Shown: positions 950 through 20,489 of the stretch, in pieces
Position numbering within the stretch: position 1 is the stretch's first letter
Layout of the letters: the number at the start of each line of letters is the position of its first letter
NCBI GenBank assembly: GCA_026005175.1
Contig: BPKO01000004.1
Coordinates: 1-64,000 of the forward strand
Direction of reading: 5' to 3'
Length of the DNA: 64,000 nucleotides
Source of the DNA: Candidatus Tectimicrobiota bacterium
GTDB taxonomy: Bacteria > Tectomicrobia > Entotheonellia > Entotheonellales > Entotheonellaceae
Notes under the pieces: model-generated
Databases searched by the model: none
What the model was told of the DNA's origin: nothing
Seen by the model: only the letters and a program-made list of their open reading frames with translations
Program-made: the position numbers and the translations under genes

Positions 950-3900
950 GCTTCAAACCCTCATAGGTAGCCTCTCAACTGGCCAGCAGCTCAGCCACAT
1001 GGCCTGGCCTATCTAGTTTCAAACCCTCATAGGTAGCCTCTCAACCTGGATTCGTTACTTGGCAAGCAGCATCGGCGGCTGTGGCGGGCTCCGGTTTCAA
1101 ACCCTCATAGGTAGCCTCTCAACGGCCCTGCAGTGAGGGCCCGCACTCGCGCCCGTTTCAAACCCTCATAGGTAGCCTCTCAACCCGCACGCCATACGTG
1201 GCACTCGCGGCGCCTAGGTTTCAAACCCTCATAGGTAGCCTCTCAACGTGAACTGCGGCTGCACTGCCAATTGAGCCGCGTTTCAAACCCTCATAGGTAG
1301 CCTCTCAACCCTTTCAGGTAGCCGGCGCTTGACCATATTGGTTTCAAACCCTCATAGGTAGCCTCTCAACCGTATCTGCGGCCGAGTGCGTGGATCAGAT
1401 CACGTTGTTTCAAACCCTCATAGGTAGCCTCTCAACGCCAGGCCGCAGAAGGCTCACCTGCGTAGACGACGGTTTCAAACCCTCATAGGTAGCCTCTCAA
1501 CGGCAGCCAGGCGAGGCCCGCGACGGTCTCGAGGGCCGTTTCAAACCCTCATAGGTAGCCTCTCAACGTTTGGTGTTGCCATGACGACTAGTAAACGATG
1601 TTTCAAACCCTCATAGGTAGCCTCTCAACGCAGCTGATGACCACTGGACGAGCATCGGCGAATGTTTCAAACCCTCATAGGTAGCCTCTCAACGGCCTCG
1701 ATAGTTACTGCCAGGGGATGTGCTACGTTTCAAACCCTCATAGGTAGCCTCTCAACGCCCGCGTCCCGTGCCGCGCTCCATTCGATCAGGTTTCAAACCC
1801 TCATAGGTAGCCTCTCAACCTGGTTTTGACCGAAGATTATCTCCTCGAAGAGTTTCAAACCCTCATAGGTAGCCTCTCAACGCGGCAGCCCGGGCCTTCA
1901 GGGATGCTGGCCCAGGTTTCAAACCCTCATAGGTAGCCTCTCAACGCGGCGCGCCAGCGGCCACGGTACAGCGTTTCAAACCCTCATAGGTAGCCTCTCA
2001 ACAACATGCCGTTGCCGCCATGATCGTTTCAAACCCTCATAGGTAGCCTCTCAACGACTCGCAGGTTGTCTCAGTCCTAGCATGATCATGGGTTTCAAAC
2101 CCTCATAGGTAGCCTCTCAACGCATGGAAGCGAGAGCACCTCCAGCTGGCTTCCAGTTTCAAACCCTCATAGGTAGCCTCTCAACCGCGGACCGCCGTTG
2201 CCATCAGCGAGTTTCAAACCCTCATAGGTAGCCTCTCAACTGGAGGAACTCCGACGAATCTGTTTCAAACCCTCATAGGTAGCCTCTCAACTGGATCATC
2301 GGTCATCTGGCATGTCTTATGCCTGTTTCAAACCCTCATAGGTAGCCTCTCAACCTCCACTGCCTATCTCACGCTGGACGGTCGCGGAGTTTCAAACCCT
2401 CATAGGTAGCCTCTCAACCCCACCGCTCGGCAGGTTTCATCATACTTGCGCTAGTTTCAAACCCTCATAGGTAGCCTCTCAACAGGGCCGCCGCGCGGCG
2501 GCGCTCCGGCGTTTCAAACCCTCATAGGTAGCCTCTCAACGTCGCTCTGTGGTAGCATTATCGCAGTTTCAAACCCTCATAGGTAGCCTCTCAACGATCG
2601 CCGTTTCAGAGTCTTGAAGCCGACCCGTTCGAGTTTCAAACCCTCATAGGTAGCCTCTCAACATCGGGTTGGGTTCGGATTGTCGGATTTCTCAGGTTTC
2701 AAACCCTCATAGGTAGCCTCTCAACGACGGCGCCCGTCGACGTAGCCCAGCTCCAGGATTCGTTTCAAACCCTCATAGGTAGCCTCTCAACCGATCCCGG
2801 CCGCTGCGTCCAGGACAGCATGTGGTTTCAAACCCTCATAGGTAGCCTCTCAACAGGTCACTTTCCCACCTTGAAACGGCTATGGACGCGTTTCAAACCC
2901 TCATAGGTAGCCTCTCAACGCTGCCCTGTAGACTCCGTTCAGCTCCGTGTAGATGTTTCAAACCCTCATAGGTAGCCTCTCAACCAACACGTACCACGAG
3001 CTGTACCTGTAATACGGTTTCAAACCCTCATAGGTAGCCTCTCAACGGGCCGGATGGAGGCTGCAATGCTGCTACCCGGTTTCAAACCCTCATAGGTAGC
3101 CTCTCAACTTACCTGTACGCTCATAGGGCTGTGTCCGAGCATGTTTCAAACCCTCATAGGTAGCCTCTCAACCAGGAGAGGCCGCTGACATGCGCAGAGG
3201 ACGCCGTTTCAAACCCTCATAGGTAGCCTCTCAACTCGGAGACACGCCCGCTGCCCGTCAGCTGCGATGGGTTTCAAACCCTCATAGGTAGCCTCTCAAC
3301 CGATTGCGGTGGTCGAGCAGCTCGACCGCCGTTTCAAACCCTCATAGGTAGCCTCTCAACGCAAGCGCCAGAGGCTGCTTTGCTGAGACAGGTTTCAAAC
3401 CCTCATAGGTAGCCTCTCAACGTCCTAAACCGGTCGGTCCATCATCTACCCGGTTTCAAACCCTCATAGGTAGCCTCTCAACCTGGCAGGAGAGTCCTAC
3501 GCGACTTCAGGCGTAGTTTCAAACCCTCATAGGTAGCCTCTCAACTTCGGCGAGAGCGCACTCGCATCGTGCCGACTGCCGGTTTCAAACCCTCATAGGT
3601 AGCCTCTCAACGACTTGTCTTGTATCATGACGTACTTCACAGTTTCAAACCCTCATAGGTAGCCTCTCAACCAGTTACATTTTTCGTTCGGTAGCCTCTC
3701 AACTGCATAGTGAGCAAGTCCGCCCGCTGGGGGTGGACGCGACGAGTAGTTTCAAACCCTCATAGGTAGCCTCTCAACACAGGATGTTTTTTAGGGGGCT
3801 GACTCCGGACCACGTTCGAAAGAGTTTCAAACCCTCATAGGTAGCCTCTCAACCGTCGCCACGCGGACCTGTTGCGCAGGTCATCGCTCCTCGCGGGTTT

Positions 3901-4279
3901 CAAACCCTCATAGGTAGCCTCTCAACTCGTGTGGATACTCACAATCCCCAAATTGGACTTGAGTTTCCAACCCTCATAGGTAGCCTCTCAACAGGTGCCG
4001 CGGGCCATGCTGCTTCAGCCCGGATCCGGGTTTCAAACCCTCATAGGTAGCCTCTCAACCTGCTGGCACTGGACGAAATCGCCTGGGTCCATGAAGTACC
4101 GGGTTTCAAACCCTCATAGGTAGCCTCTCAACAGCGACGACTTTGCAGTCCTGAGACGCAGCGTGATGGTCTGGGGTTTCAAACCCTCATAGGTAGCCTC
4201 TCAACGAGCGCCCCGAAGGCGATCCCGGCACTGGTTCGTGCCACACCCTGTTTCAAACCCTCATAGGTAGCCTCTCAAC
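950..4279 (-). CRISPR. CRISPR array, 53 repeat units of 30 bp
   Basis: A 30-bp unit (plus strand begins GTTTCAAACCCTCATAG and ends GTAGCCTCTCAAC) recurs 53 times from 950 to 4279. Unit 1 (950) has a C at its second base, the unit at 3963 has an A-to-C change, and the unit at 3674-3703 is truncated or degenerate. Spacers range from 21 to 48 nt. Read on the minus strand the repeat ends in TTTGAAAC, close to the ATTGAAAC 5' crRNA handle of type I-B/III repeats. The array is therefore probably transcribed leftward, with its leader at the cas2 side and the altered unit at 950 as the old trailer end. It is adjacent to a complete set of I-B genes with a Cas6 to process it. No spacer target could be searched. 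Confidence 0.98.
3672..3703 (-). repeat. Truncated CRISPR repeat at a junction in the array
   Basis: After the normal unit 3642-3671 come 18 bases and then only the last 14 bases of a repeat (GGTAGCCTCTCAAC, 3690-3703). Counting back 30 bases to 3674, the left half matches the consensus poorly. The distance between the flanking intact repeats (3671 to 3749) is about 25 bases shorter than a normal spacer-repeat-spacer. This fits a deletion or recombination joint. Spacers to its left are about 30-36 nt and those to its right 36-45 nt. Confidence 0.8.
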
Positions 4280-4505
4280 CAAAACCAATCCTATTGGGTT
4301 CTCGCCGGACGACTGACCACTCTCCTGTCAAAAATCGAGTAAGGTGGAAGAGAACTTGCCCGCATCGCCGCAATTTGTCAAGTCGAGAGGGCACTACGCC
4401 AGTGGCGTCGCCTCCCCCGCTATCGTGCACGATCGGAAGTCGACGACCTCAAAGGAGCCCGCACGACCGCCTCTGCGCCCAGCTCCCGAGGCATGGATCA
4501 ATCGG
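4280..4505 (-). promoter_or_regulatory. Putative CRISPR leader
   Basis: This 226-bp non-coding stretch lies between the last repeat and the cas2 stop. Repeat orientation and the cleanness of adjacent repeats make it the leader side. An inverted repeat CCAAT-CCT-ATTGG (4285-4297) sits five bases from the first repeat on the leader side. On the minus strand a TTGACA (4326-4331) and a TAGGAT (4288-4293) are present, but 32 bases apart, too far for one sigma-70 promoter. Short open frames here do not look coding. Confidence 0.6.
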
Positions 4506-4769
4506 TTAGACGAGCCATTCCGGCCCACCCTTACGCCTCCCCAGTTCCCGGCGTTCCAACCACCTCTCGGTCCGCAGCATGTAGATCAGCACGCTGTCCT
4601 CCTCCTCGTCCATTACGTGGCGAAGCTCCCCCAGAAGCTTTTCTAGCTGTGCCCAAGTCAGCTCTCCTTCCAACACGGAGTTCTGCACCCAGGTAAGGTA
4701 TTTCCGCCCAACCTTCAACACCTTGGCCACCCGCTCCACCGCCACGTCATAGACCAAGATCACGTACAT
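4506..4769 (-). CDS. cas2: CRISPR-associated endonuclease Cas2
   Basis: This 87-residue protein is normal length for Cas2, the small ferredoxin-fold dimer that bridges Cas1 in the spacer-integration complex. It starts MYVILVYDV, the usual first strand with its conserved Asp (D8), and continues with the amphipathic helix and WVQNSVLEGEL typical of I-B Cas2. The frame stays open further upstream to 4946, but the family N-terminus begins at the ATG at 4769. It is the last gene of the leftward cas operon, 79 bp after cas1 and next to the leader. Confidence 0.95.
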   Translation of the reverse strand: MYVILVYDVAVERVAKVLKVGRKYLTWVQNSVLEGELTWAQLEKLLGELRHVMDEEEDSVLIYMLRTERWLERRELGRRKGGPEWLV

Positions 4770-4848
4770 GCCAGCTCGCTTTCCCTGAAAAGGGCTCTCT
4801 TCGACGTCCCGTTCGGCATCCTGCGTTAGGAAACATTCCCGGAAAAAG

Positions 4849-5874
4849 CTACCAGCGGCTCCTGAACGGTTCGTAGAGTTTTTCACCCAGGAGATGCTTT
4901 TCCAACTTGTAGAGCTCCAAGCGGATGAGGCGCCGATACGAGACATTCCGCCGCAATCCCCGGTGGTGGATAGTGGTCTGCAGCCGCTCTTCCCAGGCCT
5001 GTAGAAATATTTTCCGTCCTGCTTCCGTCAAGTAAAGCCCCTCAAGCGCCTCCTCGAAGTGTTTCGGCTGAATCTGCCGCCTCTGTACCATGCTCAGTAC
5101 TAAGCGATCTACCAGCAGGGGCTTAAAAATCTCGGCCACATCAAGGTTGAGCGTGAAGCGCCGAAAGTTCGTGGTGTGTAGAAAGCCGATTCGTGGATCG
5201 AGATGGGTCTTGTAGATCTCGGCGAGGGTCGCGGTGTAAAGCAGTGAGTTCCCAAAGGAGATCAGCGCGTTCAGTCGGTTGCGGGGCGGCCGCCGGGTAC
5301 GGGCCTCAAAGGCAAATGCCTCATTTTGCAAGATGAGGTCAAAGGCGCGGTAGTAGGCCTCACGGGCTTGGCCCTCGGCCTGCATCAGCCGCTCCACGCC
5401 GTCGCATCCCTCCAAAGGCCCCCGCTGCCGCTCCACTGTCTGCACGATTGGCTCCAGCTCGGTGCTCAAGCCCCGGTTCCGATAGTAGCGCAGGACCCGG
5501 AGCATATTCTCCAACGCCCCCTCCACGAAGCGGCGTGCTAAGTCCAACCGCTTGACCTCGTCGAGGTAGTACTCTGCCTGCTTGAGGGTCAAATACCCGG
5601 AGTTGTAGTGCTCCCGGGGGTAGAAGCTGCCCACGTAATAGCCACGGCGGCTGTAGAAGTGTAGCGAGACCTCGTTCTTGCTTAGGAATTCGAGCAAGCG
5701 CTTGTTGAAGTCCAGCTCCCCGAAGGCATGAATCTCCCCAATTTGCTCAATGGGAAAGTATTTCTTCTTGCCGGCTTCTCCTTCACTTCCACTCGGGGAA
5801 GGGATCTCTAAAACGAGGGTATTTTGCCTACGGCGCAATCGCCCGCTGCTCATCAGATAGAGCGTCCGCTTCAT
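4849..5874 (-). CDS. cas1: CRISPR-associated integrase Cas1 (type I-B)
   Basis: At 341 residues this is a full-length Cas1, the metal-dependent integrase that with Cas2 inserts new spacers at the leader-proximal repeat. An N-terminal beta domain (about 1-80) precedes the helical catalytic domain. Visible metal-ligand candidates are E167 in MQAEGQAREAYY, H233 in GFLHTT and D245 in LNLDVAEIFKP. RRPPRNRLNALISFGNSLLY is the characteristic core. It begins with ATG at 5874, 12 bp downstream of cas4. It is the only cas1 in the window, so both interference modules probably depend on it for new spacers. Confidence 0.97.
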   Translation of the reverse strand: MKRTLYLMSSGRLRRRQNTLVLEIPSPSGSEGEAGKKKYFPIEQIGEIHAFGELDFNKRLLEFLSKNEVSLHFYSRRGYYVGSFYPREHYNSGYLTLKQAEYYLDEVKRLDLARRFVEGALENMLRVLRYYRNRGLSTELEPIVQTVERQRGPLEGCDGVERLMQAEGQAREAYYRAFDLILQNEAFAFEARTRRPPRNRLNALISFGNSLLYTATLAEIYKTHLDPRIGFLHTTNFRRFTLNLDVAEIFKPLLVDRLVLSMVQRRQIQPKHFEEALEGLYLTEAGRKIFLQAWEERLQTTIHHRGLRRNVSYRRLIRLELYKLEKHLLGEKLYEPFRSRW

Positions 5875-5886
5875 TGTCTGCCTCCT

Positions 5887-6408
5887 TTAGGGCTCAGGGT
5901 CAGGCTCAAGAAGGTCGCCCCAGCAGAAGTCGCGGTAGGCGCAGCGGCGGCACCATGGGATGCGCTCTGGGGGCGGGGGCAGGTGCTCTTGTAGCAACTC
6001 CTGGAGCCCTTCAATGGCCGCTTGGAGGCGAGCGCGGCCCTCTTCGTCCAGCTCGACAGAGAAACGCCGGCGCTCCCTGGGAACGCGAAGCTCCCCACGG
6101 GCCCGGACCCCATACTCTTCCAGGCGCTTGAGGTAAAAGAGAAGCTGGAGGCGGGCGGCCTCGACGAAGCGGGAGGACTTCTTTACTTCGGCGGCGACCA
6201 CCTCGCCCTCGTCCGTCTCGAGGAGGTCGAGCTTCATCCCCGGAAGCGAAAGCTCTCGACGCTTAGAGCGGGGGTAAGCCCTTTCGCTCAGGAAGCGCCC
6301 CAGCTCCAGATAAGGGTCGTCCTCGTCGGGGGTGATCTCGTGAGCCATAAGCCACGCCTCTCGACGACAGATAGCCCAGTACCATAGCAGCGTCCCTGTA
6401 AGCTTCAT
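5887..6408 (-). CDS. cas4: CRISPR-associated exonuclease Cas4
   Basis: This 173-residue RecB-family nuclease trims prespacers and helps set PAM and spacer length in I-B adaptation. Four cysteines that would hold a [4Fe-4S] cluster are present: C14 and C153, C156, C162 (WCRRCAYRDFC). The nuclease core shows D61 in MKLDLLE and E74/K76 in VAAEVKKS. It lies 16 bp after cas3 and just before cas1, the usual cas4-cas1-cas2 order. Spacer length varies strikingly in the array, which makes this gene's activity of interest. Confidence 0.95.
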   Translation of the reverse strand: MKLTGTLLWYWAICRREAWLMAHEITPDEDDPYLELGRFLSERAYPRSKRRELSLPGMKLDLLETDEGEVVAAEVKKSSRFVEAARLQLLFYLKRLEEYGVRARGELRVPRERRRFSVELDEEGRARLQAAIEGLQELLQEHLPPPPERIPWCRRCAYRDFCWGDLLEPDPEP

Positions 6409-6424: not shown

Positions 6425-8863
6425 TTACTCGATCCAAGCGCCGGTTAGCTCCTCCGGCTCCCATACAAAGCCCGTTTCCAGGTCGTAGAAGCGCTTGAGC
6501 TGCCCATAGGGCACCCAGCGCAATCCCTCGGGGTCGTGCAGGGCGGGCGGGAGGTTCTGTTGGGCGCGGCGGAGCAAGGGGCGCACTGTGAAGTCGTGCA
6601 GCTTCTTTCGGTATCGCAAATAAGCCGAACGGCGGGCCTGGGGATCTCGGGACCTCAGTACTTCTGGTTGGAAGCGTTCCAGAAGCCAGCGCTCCCGCTT
6701 GGGGCTAAGAGCAACGAAGATGGGAACCTGTTCAGGGCTCTCGATGAGGTGGAACTCGCTGAGGACCGGGTCTTCGAGGCGGTCATAGGCCAAACGGCAG
6801 TAGGCTTGCCAAAACTCTTCTGCGCGTGCCTGTGAAAGGCGCTCTTGAGCCTCGCGGAAGTAGCGTTCGACCCACTCCGGGTAGGCTGTCTCGGGCAGCT
6901 CGCGGAGCCCCTCAAGTAGCCGGCGGGCGACGTGGATGTGGATTGCGCCGTAGACGCGGGCGGCTCCACCCTCCCGAAGGGGTAGGACGTAGGCCTGCCC
7001 CTCGGGTCGGGTTCCCTCGCGGTTGCAGCGGCCTGCCACCTGCACCAGCGCGTCTATGGGCCCCAGGTCCCGCACCGTGGCGGGGAAATCCAGATCGACT
7101 CCGGCCTCGACCACCTGGGTGGAGACGACCAGCGCCCGGCCGCCAGCCCGCAGGTGCCGCCTCAAGGCCCGCAGGCGGACCTTCCGCTGCCAAGGGACAA
7201 TGTTGGTGGAAAGATGGACGAGCCACTTGTCCCCACGAGGAGGGCCGAGGCCGAAAGGCTCCACCCGGCCCCGAAGGCGCTCCCGCAGCGCCCTGTAGAC
7301 CTCAAGCGAGGCGCGGACGGTATTGACCACGCAGAGGAGCGAGCCGTTCTCCTCATAGAGCTCCAGGATCCGCTCAGCCCAGGACTCCCGCTCAAGCTCG
7401 TCGGGATGGACCTGGAGCCGGGTGCGCGTCTGCCCCCGGAAGAGAGCGGATGGGTCGGGATGAAGCTCCCGCACCTCGGACTCGGGAAAGAGAAGCGGGC
7501 GGGTGGCGGTCATCTGAAGGACGACCAGCCCAAGCTCCCGCCGCAAGAGTTCAAACACCTTCCGCAGGAGGGGCCAGTACTCCATGGGGAGGGCTTGAGG
7601 CTCGTCCAGCACCACCACGGCCCCGACAAGGTTATGGAACTTTTTGAGGAAGCGATTCCGATACCCCACGAGCGTCTGGAAGAGCTGGACGAAAGTGGTC
7701 ACGACCACCTCGCTCTCCCAGGCCTCGACCATCAGGAGCGCTTGATCTAGAGGGAGGATTTCGTTATCTGTGCGATAGGCAATCTCCGCGAGGTGATGGT
7801 GGCGCAGCAGTAGCGTCTCGGGCACGGACCCTCCGGGATACACTGTGCGGAAGGCGTCCCGGAAGGCGCGGTAGTTTTGCTCGATAACAGTGATGAAAGG
7901 GAGGGCGTAGACGACGCGGGGAACGCGTTCTTCACCCCAAAGCGACTTCAGTTTGGCCCGCAGGCGCAGGGCTACGTCCAGGGCCGCAAACGTCTTCCCC
8001 AAGCCAGTGGGGGCCGTCATCGAGAAGACCGAACCGGGGATCTCCTCTAAATCAAGGGCTTCCACTGCCCGGCGGATCACCTGCTGAAACTCCTGGCGTC
8101 GACGGTCCAGCTCGTGGCGCGGCTTGGGGTGCCGCCCTCTGAGAAAGCGCTCGACGAGGTCTTTAGGAACAGGAGAGCGCCCGCCCCCCTCCAAGCGGGC
8201 GGCGCTGCGCTTGTCGGCGTCGAGCAGGGCGGAGAAGAGGAGTTGGCCCCAAAGGCAGAGCCGTGCCCCCTCCTCGGCGAGACGGTTCAGCTCGTAGGCC
8301 AGCCGATCCAGCTTCCCAAAGAGCCCCTTGAGGTCGGGCTTCTCGACGAACGCTACGGCTTGGTCCAGCCCTAGCGACTTCCACTCCTTGGCCCAAGTGC
8401 GCTCCTGTCGGAGGGCTTGGAGCTGTTGCAATAGGGCCCGCAGCGCCCGCCGCAGCTCCCCTGTAGCTTTGTCGGGGTCCCCCAAGGGCGGGAGAATCGC
8501 CTCCGGGGCGACCAGATTTCCGTGATGCCGGTGCACGGCCAGATACCCCAAGAGAGGCAAGAACTCCCGGCCAGGGGCTTCTGGGAGTTCCTCCTTAGAT
8601 AAGAGCCAAGCGGCGAGGACGGCCCCCAAGAAGGCGTGTCGCTCCAGCCCGCCCTCAAAGTGCTTTCTCTCCCTCAAGTGCGCCTGGAAGAAGGGGGTAT
8701 ACTTGCCCAGATCGTGGGCCAGTCCGACGAACTGAGCGGCCTCGCGCAGCAGTGTCCGGTGGCGCAGGGCCGGGTGATCCAGCCTTTCCCGGGCCCCTGC
8801 GCCCACCTCCCGAAGGTGCTCGCTTAGGGACTTTCCGGGGTGGGATTCGTAGCGCACCTCCAT
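6425..8863 (-). CDS. cas3: CRISPR-associated helicase/nuclease Cas3 (HD + DExD/H)
   Basis: This 812-residue Cas3 is the effector nuclease-helicase that type I Cascade recruits to shred target DNA. The N-terminal HD nuclease shows H50-D51 in FVGLAHDLGKY with further histidines (HAFLG, HRHHG). The helicase has a Walker A TAPTGLGKT (283-291), the DExx-box variant DEPQ (420-423), a SAT-like MTATRP, and the C-terminal QVAGRCNREG motif. All catalytic signatures look intact and the frame is uninterrupted. The start codon lies at the edge of a 9-bp inverted repeat that could affect translation. Confidence 0.97.
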   Translation of the reverse strand: MEVRYESHPGKSLSEHLREVGAGARERLDHPALRHRTLLREAAQFVGLAHDLGKYTPFFQAHLRERKHFEGGLERHAFLGAVLAAWLLSKEELPEAPGREFLPLLGYLAVHRHHGNLVAPEAILPPLGDPDKATGELRRALRALLQQLQALRQERTWAKEWKSLGLDQAVAFVEKPDLKGLFGKLDRLAYELNRLAEEGARLCLWGQLLFSALLDADKRSAARLEGGGRSPVPKDLVERFLRGRHPKPRHELDRRRQEFQQVIRRAVEALDLEEIPGSVFSMTAPTGLGKTFAALDVALRLRAKLKSLWGEERVPRVVYALPFITVIEQNYRAFRDAFRTVYPGGSVPETLLLRHHHLAEIAYRTDNEILPLDQALLMVEAWESEVVVTTFVQLFQTLVGYRNRFLKKFHNLVGAVVVLDEPQALPMEYWPLLRKVFELLRRELGLVVLQMTATRPLLFPESEVRELHPDPSALFRGQTRTRLQVHPDELERESWAERILELYEENGSLLCVVNTVRASLEVYRALRERLRGRVEPFGLGPPRGDKWLVHLSTNIVPWQRKVRLRALRRHLRAGGRALVVSTQVVEAGVDLDFPATVRDLGPIDALVQVAGRCNREGTRPEGQAYVLPLREGGAARVYGAIHIHVARRLLEGLRELPETAYPEWVERYFREAQERLSQARAEEFWQAYCRLAYDRLEDPVLSEFHLIESPEQVPIFVALSPKRERWLLERFQPEVLRSRDPQARRSAYLRYRKKLHDFTVRPLLRRAQQNLPPALHDPEGLRWVPYGQLKRFYDLETGFVWEPEELTGAWIE

Positions 8864-8891: not shown

Positions 8892-9692
8892 TTAAAGTTC
8901 CAGGAAGCAGCCGTAGGTCTCCTCGTCGGGCGGGCGGAAGAGCTCGCCCCGAAGCCGCAGGGGCAGGGGGCGCCCTTCAGCCTCCCAGAGCACGTCGACG
9001 ACGGCCTTAAGCCGTCGCCTCGCATCGAAGTCCAGCGGCATGCGGTCTTTGAGAAGGCGACGGTCAGCCAGGCGCTCCACCGGCGGCAGCTCGGCTAGCC
9101 GGGGAAGCGGAACCGCCGTCCCCACTTCCAGCGGCTCCTCGGGGTCCTGCACCCGGTTGACCTCCTCGGGCCGGTAGAGACGGGAATGCTCCGCCCATGC
9201 CAAACACTCCGAAAGCCCCAGGGAGAGCGGATAGCAGTACTCACCCCGCGCCAGTTGCTGGTACAGCCCATTTATGAGCCCCTCGTCGCGATGTTGCATA
9301 TAGACGCGATAGCGCAAGAAGCGCTCCGGCGGCCGCGGGAGAATGAACTCCACGGGGATCTGGGTGCGACGCTTGACACCATGCCAATCTTGATCATCGG
9401 TGGCTAAGTAGTTGACCGTCTGCATCACGCTGCGAACGGGGGTTTTGAGCGCGACGCCCAGATGGGCTTGTTCCATCCCCAGCGCCTCGTAGTAGGAGTC
9501 GCGCTCCCGCCCCAGGAGGGCCGCGATCAGCCCCATAAGCGCCGTCCGAGGCGGCATCGGATACGAAAGCGACGAAGAATTCGTGTAGAACCTGCGGAAG
9601 TGGGCCATCGGCCCCACGACATCGAAGACAAGCAGCGGCCCCCTTCCCTGACCCTGGCCTTGGTCTTTTCCCGTTCCCACGCCGACGGCCAT
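8892..9692 (-). CDS. cas5: Type I-B Cascade subunit Cas5
   Basis: This roughly 266-residue Cas5b/Cas5h RAMP caps the 5' handle of the crRNA in Cascade. After a short Gly-rich N-terminus comes the family start LLVFDVVGPMAHFRRFYT, followed by SYPMPPRTALMGLIAALLG, both typical of the Csh-type Cas5. I chose the ATG at 9692 because AGGGAGGG lies about 4-8 bases before it. A TTG at 9716 in the same frame would overlap the cas7 stop. It sits between cas7 and cas3 as in canonical I-B operons, and its frame is intact. Confidence 0.93.
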   Translation of the reverse strand: MAVGVGTGKDQGQGQGRGPLLVFDVVGPMAHFRRFYTNSSSLSYPMPPRTALMGLIAALLGRERDSYYEALGMEQAHLGVALKTPVRSVMQTVNYLATDDQDWHGVKRRTQIPVEFILPRPPERFLRYRVYMQHRDEGLINGLYQQLARGEYCYPLSLGLSECLAWAEHSRLYRPEEVNRVQDPEEPLEVGTAVPLPRLAELPPVERLADRRLLKDRMPLDFDARRRLKAVVDVLWEAEGRPLPLRLRGELFRPPDEETYGCFLEL

Positions 9693-9712
9693 CGGGGCTC
9701 CCTCCCTTTGGA

Positions 9713-10742
9713 TCAAGCCGCAGTTGCACCCGGAGGCTGCACGCCCGTTACGGAGAGGCCCGCTCCCTCCAGGGCAGCCTTAAGAGGCGATCCGGAGGCG
9801 AAGTCGGGATGGGCCCAGAAGACGATTTTTTCGATCTTGTCTTTAGCGTCCCGAAGCCGTTGGACGAGGCCGGTGAAGTCCAGCTCGACGTCCTTGAGGT
9901 CCTCGAGCCCTTGCTCCTTCTCGAGGCTCAATCCCGCCCGCAGGTCGCCCAGGAAGGTCCGATCGTCGGTGTACTGCACCCGCATATAGAGCCGGGGGGT
10001 TTGGCCCAGCTTGCTGCGGGTGGTGGCCAAAAGGGGCAGCGCCTCCAGGAGCGAGTGGTCCAGGAGTTTGACGTCTTGCTCGGTGAGCCCGGTGCGGCGG
10101 GCGCGCCAGGCGCTAATCGTCCCGTAGAAGGCCAAAAGCGAATACTTGACCCGCCAGTCTTTCCCGAAGGTGCCGTACTGGCCTTTCTCCTCCTGTTCGC
10201 GGCCGGCGAACTGGGAGCTGATCGTGGCCGAGGGCAGGATCTCTGCCCGGTTGAGCGAGTATCCCCAGGAGAACTGGGCCGGTCCCGTTAACGTCAAGGA
10301 GGCCCCCGCCGCGCTCCCCCTCGCCCTCCCCGATCGGGATGGTGGCCCCAAAGAGGCGCGCGTCGACCAGCCTCTGCAAGAGCCGTTGGGAAAACTCCGG
10401 CTTCTTGGCGGCCTCCTTGGCTGATTTCTCCCCGAACGCCTTGGCCAGCGCCTCCACCCGCTGCTTGGCCGAGACTCGCTGCAGCCCGCCGTTCTCGTCC
10501 TCCAGCTGCCGCACCCAGACGTCGGGCCGGGGGTCGTAGCCCAACGCCCGCCAGGCTTCGTCGCTTAAATGGAGCCAGTAATCCCGAAGGTAGCGCTTGA
10601 GGCGGACGTCGCTGGAGAGATTCCGCCCCGCTTCGTAGTCCATACGCGGCTTGTTCTCCTCGTCGGGGTCGCCGTTGGGGTTACACAGCCGCGCGTCGTA
10701 AAGATAGAGGAGCTCGCTGTTCTTCTGAACGACCTCGCTCAT
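9713..10742 (-). CDS. cas7: Type I-B Cascade backbone Cas7 (Csh2), with a frameshift
   Basis: Cas7 forms the helical backbone that coats the spacer part of the crRNA. The N-terminal part reads NSELLYLYDARLCNPNGDPD then DVRLKRYLRDYW, classic Csh2. The C-terminal half, starting ASLTLTGPAQFSWGYSLNRAE, is in the next frame. The two halves join at about 10300-10315 if one G is dropped from a run of five (minus strand GGCGGGGGCC), giving a normal length of about 342 residues. As written the protein would stop after 209 residues. An assembly error is the likelier cause because other genes here show the same defect. Confidence 0.92.
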
Positions 10743-10745
10743 CGC

Positions 10746-12892
10746 TTAACCCTCCTCTCCGTTCTCTCCCTCGGCCTCCGCCGCCTGCTGCGACCTCTTG
10801 AGCCGTCCGGCCCGGATCGCCCGCTGGGTCTCGTAGGCATACCCCGCCAGCACCCAGTAGACGTTTTCCTGGGGGGAGCCCAGCTCCTCTTCGCTTACGC
10901 CCCGATCGAGATGGGCCTTCATCGCGGCGTAGAGCCCTTCGTTATAGTCCGCGATCTTGTACTGCCGGAGCTTCTCGTAGACCTCGTTGGCCAGGCGGAC
11001 GACCTTGAGCGGGTCCATCCCCTGGAAGTGGACCTTGTTGAGGATAGGCTTTCCGCTCTCGCGCTGCTCCGAGGTGGAGCCAATCTTCCCGATTAGCACG
11101 CCCAACAGGAAGAGCCCTCGCCTTGCTCCTGTAAGGCCGAGGCCGTCCATCCAGCTCCGAAGGCCCTCGTCCAGCAGCGCCTGCTCGATCTCGGCGGCTT
11201 GCCCTGACATCATCTCCGTCATTGCCATCGCTCTCATCTCACCTCCCTCTCTCCCGTTTTCGTTCAAACCGTGCAGCTGCCCCAATTCCTTCAGATAGCG
11301 CAGGAAGAGCTGCGCCTGAAGCAGGTGCACGACCAAAGCCCGCTCCGAGTCGTCGGGGCGGTTGTGCGCATGGGCTTCGTAGCGCTCAAAGCGGTGGATC
11401 GCGGCCGTCTCTAAGAGCTGGGGGATCAGCGCTTGGGCGCTCAGGGGGCGGCCGGTAAGAAGCGCATCCAGCAGCTCCAGATAAGGCTTCGCCTCGACCT
11501 GGCGGTCCCGCTGTCTGAGGGGCAGCAGGTAGAAGAGCCTTCTCAGTCCGAGGTCCCACTCGTTCCGCTCGCCCAGCTGATCGGCCGCCCAGTCGTAGAC
11601 GCACCGCCGCGCGTCGTCCAGCTGGTCGAGCCGGGAAGGGGGCACCTCGGCGATCAGCTTGTCGATTTTGACGGCCGCTTGCCCCTTGGTCGCGAACAGG
11701 AAGTTCAGCACGAAGAGGGCCTTCCGCTCCTCATAGGAGCGGTACTGCTCAAGCCTCTGTTGAAAGTTGTGCCACTCCTCCAGTGTGTCGGAGGCGGCCA
11801 AACGGCTCTTGAGGTAGTTGGCCCACTCCCCCAACCGCTCGGGCGCGGGTCGGGCCTCCGGGAGATGAAAGACGGGGACGAGGTAAACGTTGGAGCGCCC
11901 CAGGCGGGTGCGCAGCTCGTTCTCCACGAACCGCTCCCCCGCCAAAAGCGCCCGATAACACCCCCCGCAGAGGGTGTAGTTGCGCAAAAAGCCCCCCTTG
12001 TGCAGTCGTGAGGCAAACCCCGGCTTGTCCGTGATGTAGAACTTCAAAAGCTTGAAGCGGGTAGTGTTCGAGGTCACCCGCTCGGGAGAGCCGCAGACGT
12101 GGCAGACCCCCTTTTCGGCTTCTGGACCCGCGAAGGTCTCGTCCACCAGCTTACGCTCGATGTACTTGACGTAGTCGGGGTGTCGGACGAGCCATTCTCC
12201 GTCGAGAGCCAGCGTGTAGAGCTGGATCTGAGAGCTTTTGACGTCCAGCTCCCGGGCTACCCAGCCTTGTAAAACTTGACCGACGAGCTTGACGACCTCC
12301 GCCGCCCTCCCCTTTGCGCGGGCATAGGGCCCTGCAAGAACCTCTCGCTCAAGAACTCGACGCCCTCTTGGGTGCAAATTCTTTCTACCTCTTCCCGATC
12401 CCTCCGTCCGGAGAGAAGGTCTGGGACGGAGTTGAGCCCCAGCTTCCGAAGATCCCACACCTGGCGATAGCGCTCGTACTGCCCATCGCCGCCCCCATTG
12501 GGGAACAGCTCGCCCTTCTCCCCGAGATCGATGTAAGCAGCTTCACGCAGCGTCCGGAGCTTCACGACAAGCGAGCCGTCCTTGGGCAGCGTCTTCAGCA
12601 GGTTGGGCACCGTCTGAGAGGCCAGATACTCGGGATGGTCCGTGGTGAGGCGATCCTGAGGGCTGTTCGAGCCCGCAGCGTTCCCCACCCAGAAGGCATC
12701 AACAAGTGTTTCTTTGTCTAACTGCTGTAAGTCCACCCGTAGCCGGCGCTCGTTCGGGCAGACATCCAGAACGACGAGGTAGCCCTTCTCCCCCTCCCTA
12801 AGCCGCTCCAGGGGGCGCAAGTCGACCAGAGCTTCTATCAAGGGCGCCTGCTCAAGGGCGGCCTCCCCGAGCGCGCGAATCCCTTCCAGCAT
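10746..12892 (-). CDS. cas8b: Type I-B Cascade large subunit Cas8b (Csh1/TM1802-like), with a frameshift
   Basis: Cas8b is the large subunit that recognises the PAM and helps recruit Cas3. The first frame (12892 down to about 12310) starts MLEGIRALGEAALE and contains DLRKLGLNSVPDLLSG. The second frame (to 10746) holds the zinc-binding pairs CHVCG and CGGC and the rest. The halves overlap in frames near 12290-12330. Joining them needs one base added in a G/A-rich stretch (AAAGGGGAGGG on the coding strand), giving about 715 residues. The shift is opposite in sign to the others in this window. The start has GGAGGGAA upstream and overlaps the cas6 end by 41 bp. Confidence 0.88.
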
Positions 12893-13796
12893 CGCGCTTC
12901 CCTCCCTTCTTCTTCCCCTCTTTCTCCTTCCCCGTCTCCTTGGGTCTCCACGGCCCGATGCACCCGAACCCCTGGGAGTTCTTGGCTCCCAGCCCGGCGT
13001 CGAAGGCCAGCTCCATCAGCTTCGGGGGCAGCTCCAGCTCGTAGACCCCCGTCCAGGCCTTGATGACCGTCCCCTTGTAGAAGAGGATATGCTCGTCCCG
13101 CAGGCTCACCTTCAGGGGCCGGATCCTCGCCTCCGCTCCCTCTCCCGGGGGGTAGGCCTCCTCCCCCACTCCCGTTCCCGCGGTGGCGGCCCGATCGCCC
13201 GCTTCGGGGAGGCCCAGAAGGGCCAGCCAGGCCCGCCACGCCCGCAGCTTCCGGCGTAAATTTTCGAGCAGCAACCGCTCAAACTCCTCCTCGAAGGGGG
13301 GGACGTAATAGGTCTTGCGCTTCCCCTCGGCGGTGTAGAGGGTGCGGTAGACAGTGATGGGGGAGAGAGCCTCGACCTGCACCGGGCTTGTGTAGGCAGG
13401 AAGGGGCTCTACCACCACGTCAAGGAGGCGGACCTCCTGAGTGCCGAGCCGCAGCCGCCTGACCGTGAGCAAATGCTCGAGTAGGGAGCGAAGGAAGGGC
13501 TCCAGGGGAGAGGCAACCACCATCCGGACAGGGCCTTGGAAGGCCATCCGCTCGCCCAGGAGACGGAAGCGCCCCTGAAGCCGGGAGAAAGTAAAGAGCT
13601 TTAAGCGGCGCTTGATATTTTGGGGGTCGGGGAGGCCTTCGTCGTGGAGGGTCCGGGCGAGCCAGCGGTCGAGATGGCGGTAGAGGAAGCCCTGGACGAG
13701 GGCGTTGTAGTGGCGGGGAAGGACCAGCTCGCGGCCGCTCTGGGCTTCCAGAGTCAGTCGCAGGCGCACAGTGCTCCGCTCCCATCCGCTAGACAC
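12852..13796 (-). CDS. cas6: CRISPR RNA endoribonuclease Cas6
   Basis: This 314-residue RAMP-fold enzyme cuts the pre-crRNA within repeats. It shows the two-ferredoxin-fold layout and the C-terminal Gly-rich loop GLGAKNSQGFGCI. A proline/glycine/alanine-rich insertion (about residues 197-225) and a Lys/Arg-rich tail of some 30 residues (ETGKEKEGKKKGGKRDAG) are extra to the usual 240-270 residues. It starts at GTG 13796 with AGGAGG ten bases upstream and is the first gene of the leftward operon. No other cas6 is in the window, so it probably feeds crRNAs to both effector complexes. Confidence 0.92.
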   Translation of the reverse strand: MSSGWERSTVRLRLTLEAQSGRELVLPRHYNALVQGFLYRHLDRWLARTLHDEGLPDPQNIKRRLKLFTFSRLQGRFRLLGERMAFQGPVRMVVASPLEPFLRSLLEHLLTVRRLRLGTQEVRLLDVVVEPLPAYTSPVQVEALSPITVYRTLYTAEGKRKTYYVPPFEEEFERLLLENLRRKLRAWRAWLALLGLPEAGDRAATAGTGVGEEAYPPGEGAEARIRPLKVSLRDEHILFYKGTVIKAWTGVYELELPPKLMELAFDAGLGAKNSQGFGCIGPWRPKETGKEKEGKKKGGKRDAGRDSRARGGRP

Positions 13797-13947: not shown

Positions 13948-14468
13948 TCTTTCCGAGTTGACTGATGGTCAACAATAGCCATAGACTGCGGCTGAGACGG
14001 AAGGAGGATCGGAGCCGCGAAGCGGATACGCAATGGGCTCATGGCGTGCCGCCTCTACCTCCCAGAAACCCTGGGGCAAGTACAGGGCCGACGGCCACTA
14101 GACCCTGAAAGGCAGTAATGCTGGTGGTGGCGGGCTTTCCCATGAGGTCTGCTGCTGCTGGAGAGCACCCAGAGACGTGAAGTAAAGTTGGACCAAGGAG
14201 GCTCTGGTAACAGTGAAGGTGGCCGCTCGGGCGGAGTACCCCAGGGCAAGGCCAGAGGAGCTGGTAGCCAACAAGGGCGACGAGAGCGGCGCTCTGCACC
14301 AGAGGCTACAGGCCTGGGGCAGCCCCAGAAGTAGGACGCCCGATCCAGCCGGGCAGGAAGACCGACCTCTCGGGCTATCGTTTCGTCGCCGTCCTCCGAA
14401 CCATTATTGATTCAGCCGTTCGCCGCCCCGGCGGGGCGTAGGAAGGGACACCAAGGGAGATTACGGTG

Positions 14469-15594
14469 ATGGGCGAGAACTTGCGGGTGGAGCTGCGAAC
14501 ACGGACGCCCCTCTGGACCGGGGGTGCGGGGGGCACCATGGACCGCATCCACGAGACCGGGATTTTAGGGAGCCTGCGGTGGTGGTACGAGGCCATCGTG
14601 CGGGGGCTGGGGGGGACGGCGTGTGACCCGGCTTCGGGGTCCCAAAAGTGTCAGTACAATTCGCGAGACCGACAATCACCGGAAGAACAGCTCTGTTTTG
14701 CCTGCTACGTCTTCGGAGCCACGGGCTGGAGAAGGCGTTTTTCGCTGAAGGTAGTGGAAGATCGGACAAAACCGGCCCTGGACGTCCGCCTCCGCCCTGA
14801 ACATCCGCCCTCCGAGCCGCCGCCGGGGCTGGTACCTCCCGCCGAGCCGGATGGGGAAGTTCACCCTAGAGATCCAGGGTGAGAAGTCAGTCTTGCAGCA
14901 ACTAGCCGCTCTCCTGCTGTTTCTAGAGCAGTGGGGACATTTGGGAGCCAAGCCGCAGCTGGGATACGGGATCCTTCAGATCCTCAATCGCGAGGAGGTG
15001 CGCGGCTGGGCAAGAGGGATGTCTTGGAATGTAGGCTCAAACGCTCCAACTCCCAATGAAAATCTGCCGGATCTTCGGCGCTTTGGGTTCTTCCGCTATA
15101 GGTTTTCGCCGCAGGGCGATTGGTGGACCCACGTCCCCGGACTGAATGCAGACGGGACGAAGGAGCGAGTGCAACAGCTCCTCTCCCACTACAACACAGT
15201 TCCAGTTTCCCCCGCGCTCAAGAACGAATGGCGATTTCAGCGCTGGAAAGGAAAGCGTCAGGACGAGCAGTGGATGTTCGGCACCACCCGATGGCGCAGG
15301 AACCGCGAAACGGTCCGCGTGCGTAGTAAGATCGTTGTTAGCTGGGCTTACAAGCTGGATAGAGAATGGGAGATCCGAGGATGGGCATGGTTGCAAAAGC
15401 CTGCTATTGCTGCGGACGTATGGGAGTTGCTTAAAGACGAAGCGGGTTGGCAGAGCGTGCTAAGTTTGCAAGGGAAGTTGCAGGGGGAGCCGTCAGGGAA
15501 CTGGACGGAACGGTCGGGCCCGAACAAGTCAGAGATCTGCTTCACAGGGTCACATCATAATGGAGTTGGAGTATATTCTCTGGCTGCGCCGTAA
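14469..15594 (+). CDS. cmr1: Type III RAMP protein Cmr1, with a frameshift
   Basis: Cmr1 caps the type III effector at the 3' end of the crRNA and helps bind target RNA. The N-terminal part is clearly Cmr1: TRTPLWTGGAGG, then ETGILGSLRWWYEAIVRGLGG, and a cysteine pair CFACYVFGATGW. The frame breaks at about 14850 and continues as GKFTLEIQGE. Removing one G from GATGGGGAAG (14853-14862) restores about 374 residues. The ATG at 14469 (or the GTG just before it) follows GGGAG at a suitable distance. First gene of the rightward type III operon. Confidence 0.9.
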
Positions 15595-15595
15595 A

Positions 15596-16511
15596 ATGGA
15601 TTCGGCGCTTCAGCAGCTCGTACAAGCTGCTGAAAAGCTAAAAGAAGCCAAACGACAAGGGAAAGACAAAAAGCGCTACGAGCAGCAGATCAAAGAAGCC
15701 GCTCGTCAAGCCTGCGAGGTTGATCCAGCAGCTGCGCCTACCGTTGCCTTCTTGTGGCTAAGAGCTTGTTATCGTGGCCTTGAAGACCATATCCGTGATG
15801 TCTGGTCACCTTTCTTAAATGAAGAGAGCATTTGTAATCAGTTATTAGATCATGCTTCTCTGCATACTTCGAAGTATTGGAGGATTGCCTTGGATTTTAC
15901 CCTCCGCAAGCCCTATCTAAGCAAGGACGACACGGACTTCTACATCCTGGACAACCCTGTGCGAAAGGAGTGGGTCTTCCAGGTGCCTTACATCGCCCCC
16001 AGCCAGTGGAAGGGCGCGCTGCGGGCGGCCATGCGTCGGCGGCGCGGCTACACCTCCTGGGAGCAGGAGGCTCAAGACGAGCAGATGATCCGACTTTTCG
16101 GCAACGTTAAGGGGGAGGAAAACGAGTTCAGCGCGGGCTGGCTCCACTTCTACCCTACGTACTTCGACCGCATCGGCCCTGGAGGTCATCAACCCCCATG
16201 ACCGGCAGACCGGGGCGGGCAAGCAACCCATCTACTTCGAGTGTGTGCCTCCAGGGACGGAGGGTCGCTTTGTCCTGCTCTATGTCCCTCTGGGCGAGGT
16301 CACCCCGGACGAGGTGAAGGGTGACTTCCGGGCGGTGGCCGAGGGCCTTAAGGCCATGTTCACAGAATACGGTTTCGGGGCCAAGACGAGCAGCGGCTTC
16401 GGGCGGGCGGAGGGTCACTGGGAGAGGGCCGAAATCCGGCCGGAGAAGCAAGAGCTCCGAGAAGAATGGAAGCGCGTCTGGAGCGAAGGCGGTGGCGAGA
16501 CTCATGAGTAA
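15596..16511 (+). CDS. Type III RAMP protein (Cas7 group, Cmr6-like), with a frameshift
   Basis: A RAMP protein with a helical N-terminus rich in Lys/Glu (about 1-55), then the RAMP core YIAPSQWKGALRAAM, RLFGNVKG, LHFYPTYFDRIG, and a C-terminal Gly-rich loop FGAKTSSGFGRAEG. The frame breaks at GGCCCTGG (about 16180-16187). Dropping one C gives DRIGLEVINPHDRQTGAG and about 304 residues. The ATG at 15596 comes right after the cmr1 stop; an earlier in-frame ATG at 15560 lies inside cmr1. It probably takes a Cas7-like backbone or capping position. Cmr6 is the closest role but I am not certain. Confidence 0.8.
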
Positions 16512-19396
16512 GCTAAAAGGTCTAAAACAAAACCAAAGCGAGCTTCAAAAAGCCGAGATTGCAGCTTGGCTGCATAATTGGCGAAAGTGCTCGGATGAGC
16601 ATATCAAAGTTTCCGCGAGCACACCGCCAAGTGGCGCGCAGAATTTACCAAAAACTTGGCTCCAGGTAAAGCTTGGCACCACTATAACGATTACCTGCCT
16701 AAATGAATCGATCGTACTGCTGGATTTGGTTGAACGTGGCCGAAAAGGAGATCCTGAAGAAACAGGGATCCCTCGCTTGACTGCTTATCTGCGACGGTGC
16801 CACCGTGCTTCTCATATCGAAAAGGAGGAGACCGACGACTTAGGGAAGCAACCTGATACTGACACCCGAATGAGCAGCCCATTTGGGTATGAAGGGAAAC
16901 CCCTCTCCGGATTGACGCAGCTTCTCGAAAACCTTCCTTGGGACGATGTTTTGGATCGTGGCCGGTTTCTCCCGCAGCTTCAGGAAGCCTTCAAGCAAGC
17001 CCTCGGAGAGACCCGTCGCCCTGAAAACGAGGTCACCCTGTGGGACTGGTCCCTCATCGTGGCCGCCCTCTACAAGGCCGCCCTGGCTGGGGCTTTGCTT
17101 GATTACAAGTCGAAGCCCAACGATCTGCGCTGGCGGCTCCTCTCCGTCCACTTCGACGGTCTGGGGTTCTTAAGCGAGGCCCCACCGCATCCCCGATCTC
17201 TTGGGTCGCAAGCAGGCTTTACAGAATGCCCTCGACGCCGTACAGAACTTGCTAGAAGTCGAGTATCCCCTGGGCACCGAGGTCTACCGCGATGAGAATG
17301 GGAGCATCTTCGTGGTGCCGGGCTGCGAGAAGGGGGACTGCACACTCAACCTCCTAAGGCTGCAAGACGACAACGGCAAATCCCTAGAAGCCCTCCTCGA
17401 GAAGAAGTTTCTGGACGCTCTGGCGGGCGAAATCGTCCCCCGGATCGAGCTGGACGAGGAGCCCTGGTGGGGCCAGGATCCGGGATGGAAAAGCAAACAA
17501 AGCCAGGGCATTTTGCAATTCAACGACGAGTACCCTCCGGTGGCCGAGCACCTGAAGCCCGTGGAAAGCGGGGCCGACCCGCAGCGACTCTGGCAGGATT
17601 GGCAGAACCAACGGGCGGAAGTCTGCACCGTCTGCGGGCTGCGGCCGCAAAGCCCTAAAATTCGGGACCGGCACATCTGCGAAGTCTGCAATGAGCGCCG
17701 CGCTCGCCGCGTGAGGGGGTGGCTTGAAGACTTAAGCACGACCGTCTGGATCAACGAGGTGGCGGACGACAACGCCCGGGTAGCCCTGATCGTGGGGCGC
17801 TTCGATCTCACCCATTGGCTTGACGGGACGCTGGTGCGCACCCTGCGGGTGACCGATCCGGCTTCCCCCACCCCACCCAAATACGTGACGGAGAAGATCC
17901 CCTCGTTCGTGCGGCTCCACCGCATCTTGAACACAACCCGCCGCTTCTGGCAGGAGCTCTGCCCGACGGACCCCGAGGTAAATATGAAGGAGTCCGTCGT
18001 GGGCAGAAGCGTACAGCCGAGAAGGCCGCGCCTTGAGATCCAGGGGGCATTCAGCCCCGCCCACCCCGCAACGAGCCTGGAACGCTATCAGGCCTACGAG
18101 CTCGTGCTGGAACGCGGGATCGCGCTGAGCGTCGTGTGGGATGAGGATGGTCGGCGCTTTATCACCTGCGATAACCTCGACTATTTGGAATCCGAACGCC
18201 AGCTGGGCTGGTCCATCAAGGAGATTCTCCAAGGCGCAACCGTTCGCATCGAGCAGCCTGTCGGGTACGGAGCGCAGAACCGGCTTATCGGGGACTTCGT
18301 CGTAAGTAAGGTGGATGAGCTCGCCCCTGAGTACCTTCCCGTCATTCCCCTCCTGGCCGAGCCGCAGACGTTCATGGCCCTGGTCCCCGCCGACCGCGCG
18401 ATCGAGGTCGTCAAGGGGATCAAGGCCAAATACGAGCAGGAGATGGGCAAAGTTAGGAACCGGCTGCCGCTGCACCTGGGTGTCGTCTTTGCCCATCGGC
18501 GCACACCTCTTCGGGCCATCCTGGATGCCGGAAGGCGTATGCTCAAGCAACATGCTCCTGCCAAGGGATGGGAAATCGTCTGTGCTGCCCGAAAATCGAT
18601 CGAAAAACAGGACCCGCTGCCGGAACGCTTTCAGAAAGAGGGCAAGGACCACTTCAAGGAGTGGCTTGAGGTCACGCTCAAGAAGGAAGATCGCCAGCTG
18701 GTCTGGAATGTGCCCCTTCTCATGGGCGACGGCCAAACCCGAGATAACTGGTATCCCTATATTTTTCTTGATCAGACCGTGGAGCCCACCGGGCGCCGGC
18801 GTGCCTTCCAAGCCCTGAATCCTTGGACAGACCAAAAGCAGTGGCTCGTCCACGTTGAGGACCTGAAGCCAGGAGACACGGTCTTCTTCACCCCGGCCAC
18901 CTTTGACTGGGTCTGGCTCGACAGCAACGCCCGCCGGTTCGAGATCGCCTACGACGGGCAAGTCCAACGCCGCTCTTCCCACCAAAAGCAGAGACCCTAC
19001 CTCCTCGACGAGCTGGAGACCCTTGAATCCATCTGGCAGACGCTGGAGTCCCACCTCCACCGAGCCCAAATCCACATGCTGCGCGAGACGATCGAGGCCA
19101 AGCGAGCGGCGTGGGGCTTCCCCTATGACGAGACGTTTCGACGGTTCTGTCGGGACCTTTTGGCGGAGGCCGAGTGGCGTCGCGGCACTTCGAGGGCTCC
19201 CAAGGCGCGTCGCAATAAGCTCCCCTGGGAGGTGGACAGCCGAGAGAAGGGCCAATGGCTGGAACGATGGGCGGACTATGCCGCCCGCGGTTGGCTAAGC
19301 GATGCGGTTGAGCTTTACGGGGAGATCCTGAAAGCCCGAGGGGGCGAGGGGGAAGAGGAGCGAGAGCCTGTAAGGGCGGAGGTTAAAGGGAGATGA
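16504..19396 (+). CDS. csx11: Cas10 homolog of the Csx11 type, inactive-looking palm, with a frameshift
   Basis: This is the large subunit of the type III complex, about 963 residues once one C is removed from GGCCCCACC (about 17178-17186). Near the N-terminus AAWLHNWRK (H24-N25) sits where Cas10 HD nucleases have LHDxGK. A zinc ribbon CTVCG...CEVC follows at about residues 370-395. The first palm reads ALIVGRFDLTHWLDG. The second, where GGDD is expected, reads AEPQTFMALVPADRA (EPQT at about 618-621). Without GGDD it should not make cyclic oligoadenylate. Csx11 proteins (over 900 residues, CRISPR-associated) are linked in the literature to subtype III-C-like systems. The C-terminal ~250 residues are helical and charged. 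Confidence 0.85.
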
Positions 19397-20487
19397 GCTA
19401 CGAGAACCATCGCTACGTGCTGATGACGGTGGACCCCGTCCATATTGGGACGGGCGGGATGCGGCTGGGGCGGGTGGACCTGAGCATCGTGCGCGAGCCG
19501 GGGACGAACCTCCCCAAGATTCCCGGGACCGCGCTGCATGGGGCCGTCCGCTCCTACGCCGCCCACCGCTACGGAAAGCCCCGCTGTGCGGGACTAGGCC
19601 AAACCCGGGATGGCAGAGGGGGCCACTGCGGCCGCCCCACCTGCCCTATTTGCTACACCTTCGGCTACGTCGGGGGCGAGGACACAGCTCAAGCCCACTC
19701 CGGCGTGGTCACCCTTACCGACGCCCGCATTCTCCTTTTCCCTGTCTACTCCATGGTCGGGCCGCTCTGGGTGACGAGCCCCTCGACCCTCGAGGACTTC
19801 GGCGCTGGGAGCCAGACGGTCGACGAGGGAAAGGCCAAGTGGCCGAAGGACCTCACGAGCCAGCAGCACCTCAACCTGGGCTGGCTCATGGTGGAGAAGG
19901 AAGCGAACCTCAACGTCTCGAATCTCAATCTCCCCCAGAAGCAGGCTGTTCGCGACCGCATCGTGCTGATCTCTGACAAGCTCTTCACCCACGTGGTGAA
20001 CTCCAATCTGGAGGTGCGCACCTCGGTGAGCCTCAACCCCGAGACGGGCGCGGCGGAGGAGGGCGCCCTCTTCACCTACGAGGCCATCCCACGGGCCACG
20101 TTCCTGTGGCTGGACGTGATCGTAGATGACCACCGCGGGGAGTTCCCCAACGAAGAGCGTCTGAAGCAGTGGGAGCAAACGCTAGAGGACGACGATGCCG
20201 ACGCGAAGAAGGCGCTTCTCAAGAGCTGGCGCTTGTTGAAGCCAAGCGACGAAAGCGACGAACAGAAGCTGGAAGAGGCCCTTCAAAGGGCGGAGCGCTG
20301 GCTTCGCGAGGAAAAAACGCAAGAACAGGAGCAGGAAAAGTGGCGCTGGAAGATGTCCACGATGAACGGCGTTGAGCAGACTTCGGGCGGGATCGTCGCC
20401 GCCGGGCTGGAGTGGGCAAAAGATCTGGGCATCGGAGGGATGGGCACGCGGGGCTTCGGGCGCGTGCGCAAGGTGGCGGAGGTCTAA
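19393..20487 (+). CDS. cmr4: Type III backbone RAMP Cmr4 (Cas7)
   Basis: This 364-residue protein is a Cmr4-type Cas7 that builds the backbone and cuts target RNA at 6-nt steps. The start MTVDPVHIGTGG, then GRVDLSIVREPG and LPKIPGTALHGAVRS, matches Cmr4. D29 in GRVDLSIVRE lines up with the catalytic Asp of Pyrococcus Cmr4, so RNA cleavage should be intact. A Cys/His cluster follows (CAGLG, HCGRPTCPICYTFGY). The C-terminal part has a Glu/Lys-rich charged stretch (about 255-325), then GMGTRGFGRV. It overlaps the cas10 stop by ATGA, indicating translational coupling. The frame is intact. Confidence 0.93.
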   Translation: MSYENHRYVLMTVDPVHIGTGGMRLGRVDLSIVREPGTNLPKIPGTALHGAVRSYAAHRYGKPRCAGLGQTRDGRGGHCGRPTCPICYTFGYVGGEDTAQAHSGVVTLTDARILLFPVYSMVGPLWVTSPSTLEDFGAGSQTVDEGKAKWPKDLTSQQHLNLGWLMVEKEANLNVSNLNLPQKQAVRDRIVLISDKLFTHVVNSNLEVRTSVSLNPETGAAEEGALFTYEAIPRATFLWLDVIVDDHRGEFPNEERLKQWEQTLEDDDADAKKALLKSWRLLKPSDESDEQKLEEALQRAERWLREEKTQEQEQEKWRWKMSTMNGVEQTSGGIVAAGLEWAKDLGIGGMGTRGFGRVRKVAEV

Positions 20488-20489
20488 CG

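Follow-up and report, generated by a model that had tools for sequence, protein, structure and literature searches.

Why should the spacers of one CRISPR array fall into two lengths that meet at a truncated repeat? The question is raised by an array near the left end of the window, the stretch of DNA analysed here, which covers the opening 64 kb of contig C4 in a genome of 4.0 Mb (14 contigs, completeness estimate 77%). The first-pass annotation of this DNA offered two readings: either two arrays recombined at that repeat, or spacer sizing changed before the newest acquisitions, for example through altered Cas4 trimming.

The type I-B locus and its array

The cas genes beside the array all lie on the minus strand. 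Nearest is cas2 (4506-4772; PF09827, E 1.4e-20), followed by cas1b (4849-5874; TIGR03641, 441 bits) and cas4 (5887-6408), which is full length, is recognized by TIGR00372, the Cas4b model and alignment, and keeps the aspartate, E-x-K, glutamine and cysteine positions in that alignment. This cas4-cas1b-cas2 adaptation set adjoins the array. Further on are cas3 with its HD nuclease and helicase (6425-8863; TIGR01596 and TIGR01587, both over cut-off), cas5b (8892-9716; TIGR02592 below cut-off, and TIGR02593), cas7b (9713-10742; tblastn with Thermus Cas7b), cas8b (10746-12892; TIGR02591 and TIGR02556 over cut-off, and tblastn) and cas6 (12852-13796; TIGR01877). The signature gene cas8b, together with cas5b, cas7b and cas3, places the locus in type I-B. 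Both cas7b, near a G-rich stretch, and cas8b are split over two frames, and these splits (within 9713-12892, with G runs beside cas7b) may be either decay or sequencing error. After the I-B genes comes a type III gene set on the plus strand (14466-21830; Cmr-like, Csx11-containing), several reading frames of which look broken too.

The repeat of the array (950-4279) is GTTTCAAACCCTCATAGGTAGCCTCTCAAC, present in 52 full copies. None of these has an indel and 50 are exact; of the others, the outermost repeat (950-979) has its first base changed (GCTTC) and the repeat at 3963-3992 has a single base change. Read on the minus strand the repeat is GTTGAGAGGCTACCTATGAGGGTTTGAAAC, with the 3' end ...GTTTGAAAC. 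Since cas2-cas1-cas4 sit to the right of the array and the minus-strand repeat ends in this way, the leader lies at the right, which makes the long spacers there the newest, as the first-pass annotation had assumed. Three parts were distinguished, all read on the minus strand: an older, leader-distal block of 44 repeats and 43 spacers (950-3671); a joint (3672-3703), in which 18 nt left over from a spacer (3672-3689) adjoin 14 nt of repeat (3690-3703); and the newest, leader-proximal block of eight spacers and eight full repeats (3704-4279). The presumed leader (4280-4505, minus strand) is recognized by its position between cas2 and the array and by its composition, its A+T content being 0.41 vs 0.29 in the left flank; no conserved motif was found when it was aligned with relatives.

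Left of the joint, the 43 spacers average 32.6 nt (median 33 nt) and include one of 48 nt and six of 21-27 nt, whereas the eight to its right measure 45, 45, 43, 36, 37, 43, 43 and 44 nt (mean 42.0 nt; Mann-Whitney p = 3.5e-5), two of these eight (36 and 37 nt) being of near-ordinary length. When the 51 lengths are divided into two segments, the best division is exactly at the joint, and 2 of 20,000 permutations did as well. Both tests bear out the jump in length at the truncated repeat that had been noted before. The very short spacers, earlier described as a run at 1946-2565, do lie in that interval but are not continuous; they form three adjacent pairs (27/23, 25/21 and 27/25 nt; permutation p = 0.0017) among spacers of normal length. 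Each pair is perhaps two pieces of one precursor that were captured together.

New repeats in a CRISPR array are copied from the leader-proximal repeat. All of the repeats on the leader side of 3690-3703 are full length, and this repeat was therefore truncated after its role as template had ended. Its truncation is best read as a separate and later event, most simply an internal deletion, and gives no date for the change in spacer size. Mis-sized second-strand integration was also considered as the origin of the truncated repeat and was rejected, because a truncated first repeat cannot template later full repeats.

Spacer lengths in the other arrays of the genome

The genome has three cas1 loci, namely the I-B locus on C4, a locus on C9 and one of type III. 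The second of these (locus L026) is a separate type I system with its own cas4 (full length), cas1 and cas2. Behind these genes lies an array, built on the repeat GTCTGAAAGACCATTAGGCCCTGAAAGGGATTGAAAC, which extends from L026:16323 to the contig end. At 37 nt this repeat differs strongly from the 30-nt repeat of the I-B array. Bulk C9 DNA and the window show a tetranucleotide correlation of 0.92-0.96, and C9 and C4 thus belong to one genome. The Cas1 of C9 matches TIGR04093 (I-D) over its cut-off, with the I-C and I-G Cas1 models scoring close, and the best PADLOC matches of its Cas4 and Cas3 are Cas4d and Cas3d. Its effectors match the PADLOC type I-B models Cas8b, Cas7b and Cas5b, with no match for these proteins in Pfam or NCBIfam; the Cas10d and Csc1/Csc2 effector of type I-D was sought in the locus and not found. 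An assignment to plain type I-D was consequently rejected, and the locus is referred to here as the C9 system. Its cas genes (L026:5162-16118) have a G+C content of 0.56 compared with about 0.67 for the genome, so this system was probably acquired.

In the C9 array the 21 spacers nearest the leader are all 40-47 nt long; of the 26 behind them, most measure 27-38 nt and six measure 42-46 nt. The shift is thus present in both arrays. It is partly gradual in C9, since long spacers also occur earlier, whereas in the I-B array it is abrupt, and no truncated repeat was found at the C9 transition. In seven C9 repeats (L026:16648-18635) a run of C or G has grown longer (GCCC to GCCCC..GCCCCCCCC, or GGCCC). 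All seven have long spacers on both sides (Fisher p = 0.009, noticed post hoc), and the long runs were not passed to newer repeats. They could have come from slippage in repeat copying or from sequencing error, possibly with thinner sequencing of the newest part.

The variable C and G runs in these seven repeats, together with the frameshifts in cas7 (beside G runs), cas8 and the type III cas2, make indel errors plausible in this metagenome genome. That the shift itself arose from assembly or sequencing is nevertheless very improbable: 50 of the 52 full I-B repeats are exact, with indels in none, and one-base errors cannot give a 10-nt shift that is limited to the spacers in two arrays.

The type III array (locus L027) has 57 repeats and spacers of 28-47 nt, the longer spacers being leader-distal, at the old end. 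On this account the history of the genome was not one simple switch. Decay of spacers with age was rejected as an explanation for the same reason. At L027:9939-12723 an IS66-type transposase gene interrupts the type III cas1, and cas2 is split over two frames. To judge from these broken genes, acquisition at this locus is probably dead, which may explain only the absence of a late long phase. Within the array (L027:5532-9675), the 5' half GTTGGAAGTTTT (crRNA strand) occurs at both ends and flanks some 50 repeats with GTTCGAACCGAT. The array looks composite, and the layout of the variants is not accounted for by polar growth starting at the first repeat.

A composite origin also has to be weighed for the I-B array, where two I-B arrays with different spacer sizes would have recombined at 3690-3703. 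In favour of this, the length changes exactly where the repeat is truncated, and the genome has a composite-looking array in its type III locus. Against it, the C9 array shows the same shift without a joint and would need an unrelated cause. The two I-B blocks have an identical repeat, and no other array with the I-B repeat, and hence no donor of long spacers, was found in the 77%-complete assembly or in 144 other genomes. Recombination, the first of the two readings offered earlier, is therefore disfavoured, and we regard it as distinctly unlikely.

Related arrays and searches for spacer sources

Arrays near Cas1 genes were surveyed in three genomes from the same family, in other genomes with a C9-related Cas1 and at 80 loci with an I-B-related Cas1. 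The survey gave 73 arrays with at least 12 spacers, the three of this genome and 70 others, the comparison being one by Cas1 relationship. Most of the 73 arrays have spacer lengths with a standard deviation of 0.5-2 nt, as against 5.2, 6.1 and 4.2 nt for the three in this genome. A narrow distribution is usual in the related arrays, without defining the subtype, and the I-B array (5.2 nt) departs from it. The best change points of this genome's three arrays separate means that differ by 9.0, 8.8 and 6.5 nt (each 0 of 2000 permutations). None of the 70 other arrays has a comparable significant shift, the largest separation at p < 0.05 being 2.5 nt; a separation of 7.1 nt in one array (L148; p = 0.10) is due to 11- and 14-nt intervals and a shortened repeat consensus. 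Long spacers spread evenly through related arrays would have been a refutation according to the first-pass annotation, but the related arrays are uniform in length.

Close relatives of the I-B and C9 systems have uniform spacers centred on 35-38 nt, and neither 33 nor 44 nt is thus the expected size. The type I-B systems of Thermus plasmids (L063-L065) resemble the present one in their Cas1b (55-56% identical), a nearly identical repeat (GTTTCAAACCCTCATAGGTACGGT...), a Cas4-Cas1 set and type III-B Cmr genes nearby, but their spacers measure about 35-41 nt without a comparable shift.

Two size classes were found in both arrays of this genome. The C9 lengths fit two components of 32.7 and 44.0 nt, and the I-B lengths fit three, of 24.8 (minor), 33.7 and 44.4 nt, only slightly better than two. 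Long and short spacers are grouped into eight runs in C9 (0 of 50,000 permutations) and six in I-B (p = 0.0003), much of this signal being the main shift itself. Confined to the older spacers of C9, the runs test is no more than suggestive (p = 0.07), with a lag-1 correlation of 0.38 (p = 0.018).

Two discrete classes in both arrays would fit a history in which one 44-nt adaptation complex, either that of C9 or one outside the assembly (77% complete), wrote into both arrays after a complex of ~33 nt had written the older spacers. The C9 cas genes, with their G+C content of 0.56 against about 0.67, may indeed be a later arrival. Such a complex would have had to write beside strongly different repeats (30 vs 37 nt), however, and among the relatives of the C9 Cas1 whose arrays were measured, the closest have spacers of 35-36 nt, so that 44 nt is not the known size of that branch. 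We consider this history unlikely.

It is less likely still, and in our view quite improbable, that each module changed independently, for example through mutations in its own Cas1, Cas2 or Cas4, and that the agreement is coincidental. Each locus does have its own complete set, and the C9 shift is partly gradual where that of I-B is abrupt. Both arrays reach the same size, though, and the lack of any such significant shift among the 70 other arrays makes two by chance unlikely.

No protospacers were found when the whole I-B and C9 arrays were compared with phage and plasmid records, where the plasmid matches were to Thermus loci whose CRISPR repeats are similar, apart from a single weak match to Streptomyces. 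There was likewise none for the two arrays in their own genome and four relatives, or for 20-21-mers of five recent long spacers in IMG/VR. Exact repeats were absent from IMG/VR, and the I-B repeat from 144 other genomes. Composition at the spacer ends, long compared with short, gave no convincing motif, and in a search for related spacers among 155 sequences the best scores equalled the shuffled level.

A possible shared cause of the size change

The second reading offered in the first-pass annotation, a change in spacer sizing before the newest acquisitions, is supported and can be extended to two arrays. On balance, the I-B array appears to belong to an ordinary type I-B system whose sizing changed late, from ~33 to ~44 nt, most likely through a trans-acting cause affecting the whole cell. 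The simplest such cause would be a host nuclease, common to both systems, that trimmed less than before. We infer a cause in trans because two modules, each with its own genes and repeat, shifted alike to the same size; trimming would then be the step affected, and a host nuclease the proposed agent. In such a scheme the Cas1-Cas2 of either system would hold a DNA fragment, Cas4 would cut one end of the fragment at the PAM, and the host nuclease would trim the other end. With the shared trimming weak or absent, the integrated fragment would gain about 10-11 nt in length, or about one helical turn. The helical turn is suggested by the difference between the two size classes, about 10.7-11.3 nt.

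The earlier proposal of altered Cas4 trimming as the cause is not supported in that form. Loss of Cas4 trimming requires that cas4 be absent or broken, which is the case in neither I-B nor C9, and with both genes apparently full length Cas4 is a poor candidate for the cause of the shift. Loss of a trimming factor does lengthen spacers in the type I-D system of Synechocystis (PMC10212523) and in type V-A (PMC9419969). In the former, however, removal of Cas4 raises the mode from 35 to 36 nt, a gain of 1 nt (PMC10212523), and in the latter it only broadens the distribution toward longer spacers (PMC9419969), while the change here is about 10 nt with cas4 intact.

Spacer length also depends on trimming beside Cas1-Cas2 in the type II-A Cas9-integrase (PMC8034620), in Cas2/DEDDh systems (PMC10284694) and in type I-E of E. 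coli with RecJ and ExoVII (PMC9699676). These are laboratory systems, in contrast to the present case, and no natural switch is recorded in their arrays. In type II-A, Cas1-Cas2 that lacks its trimming partner inserts DNA of unprocessed length, and a trimming-defective complex gives more ectopic and recombination products in vitro (PMC8034620). In type I-D the non-PAM end of the prespacer is trimmed by an endogenous nuclease described as unknown (PMC10212523). The single 3' nucleases DnaQ and ExoT, candidates for such an agent, are dispensable for correct prespacer ends in E. coli (PMC9699676), which speaks against the proposed mechanism.

A length change inside an array is by itself no evidence of a composite array, and spacer length can carry information on the time or conditions of acquisition. 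Two modules resized alike in a natural genome point to a shared factor and offer a route to the nuclease acting at the non-PAM end in type I-D (PMC10212523). In the part of the literature covered, we found no account of arrays that share a size switch. We suggest only tentatively, and with some doubt, that spacer length is switched in discrete steps of ~one helical turn by the condition of the host during each acquisition episode (for instance, by the level of a nuclease, or by an invader that blocks it), so that arrays belonging to different CRISPR systems within one cell record the same switch. If this were true, spacer length would be a fossil record of the nuclease state of the host.
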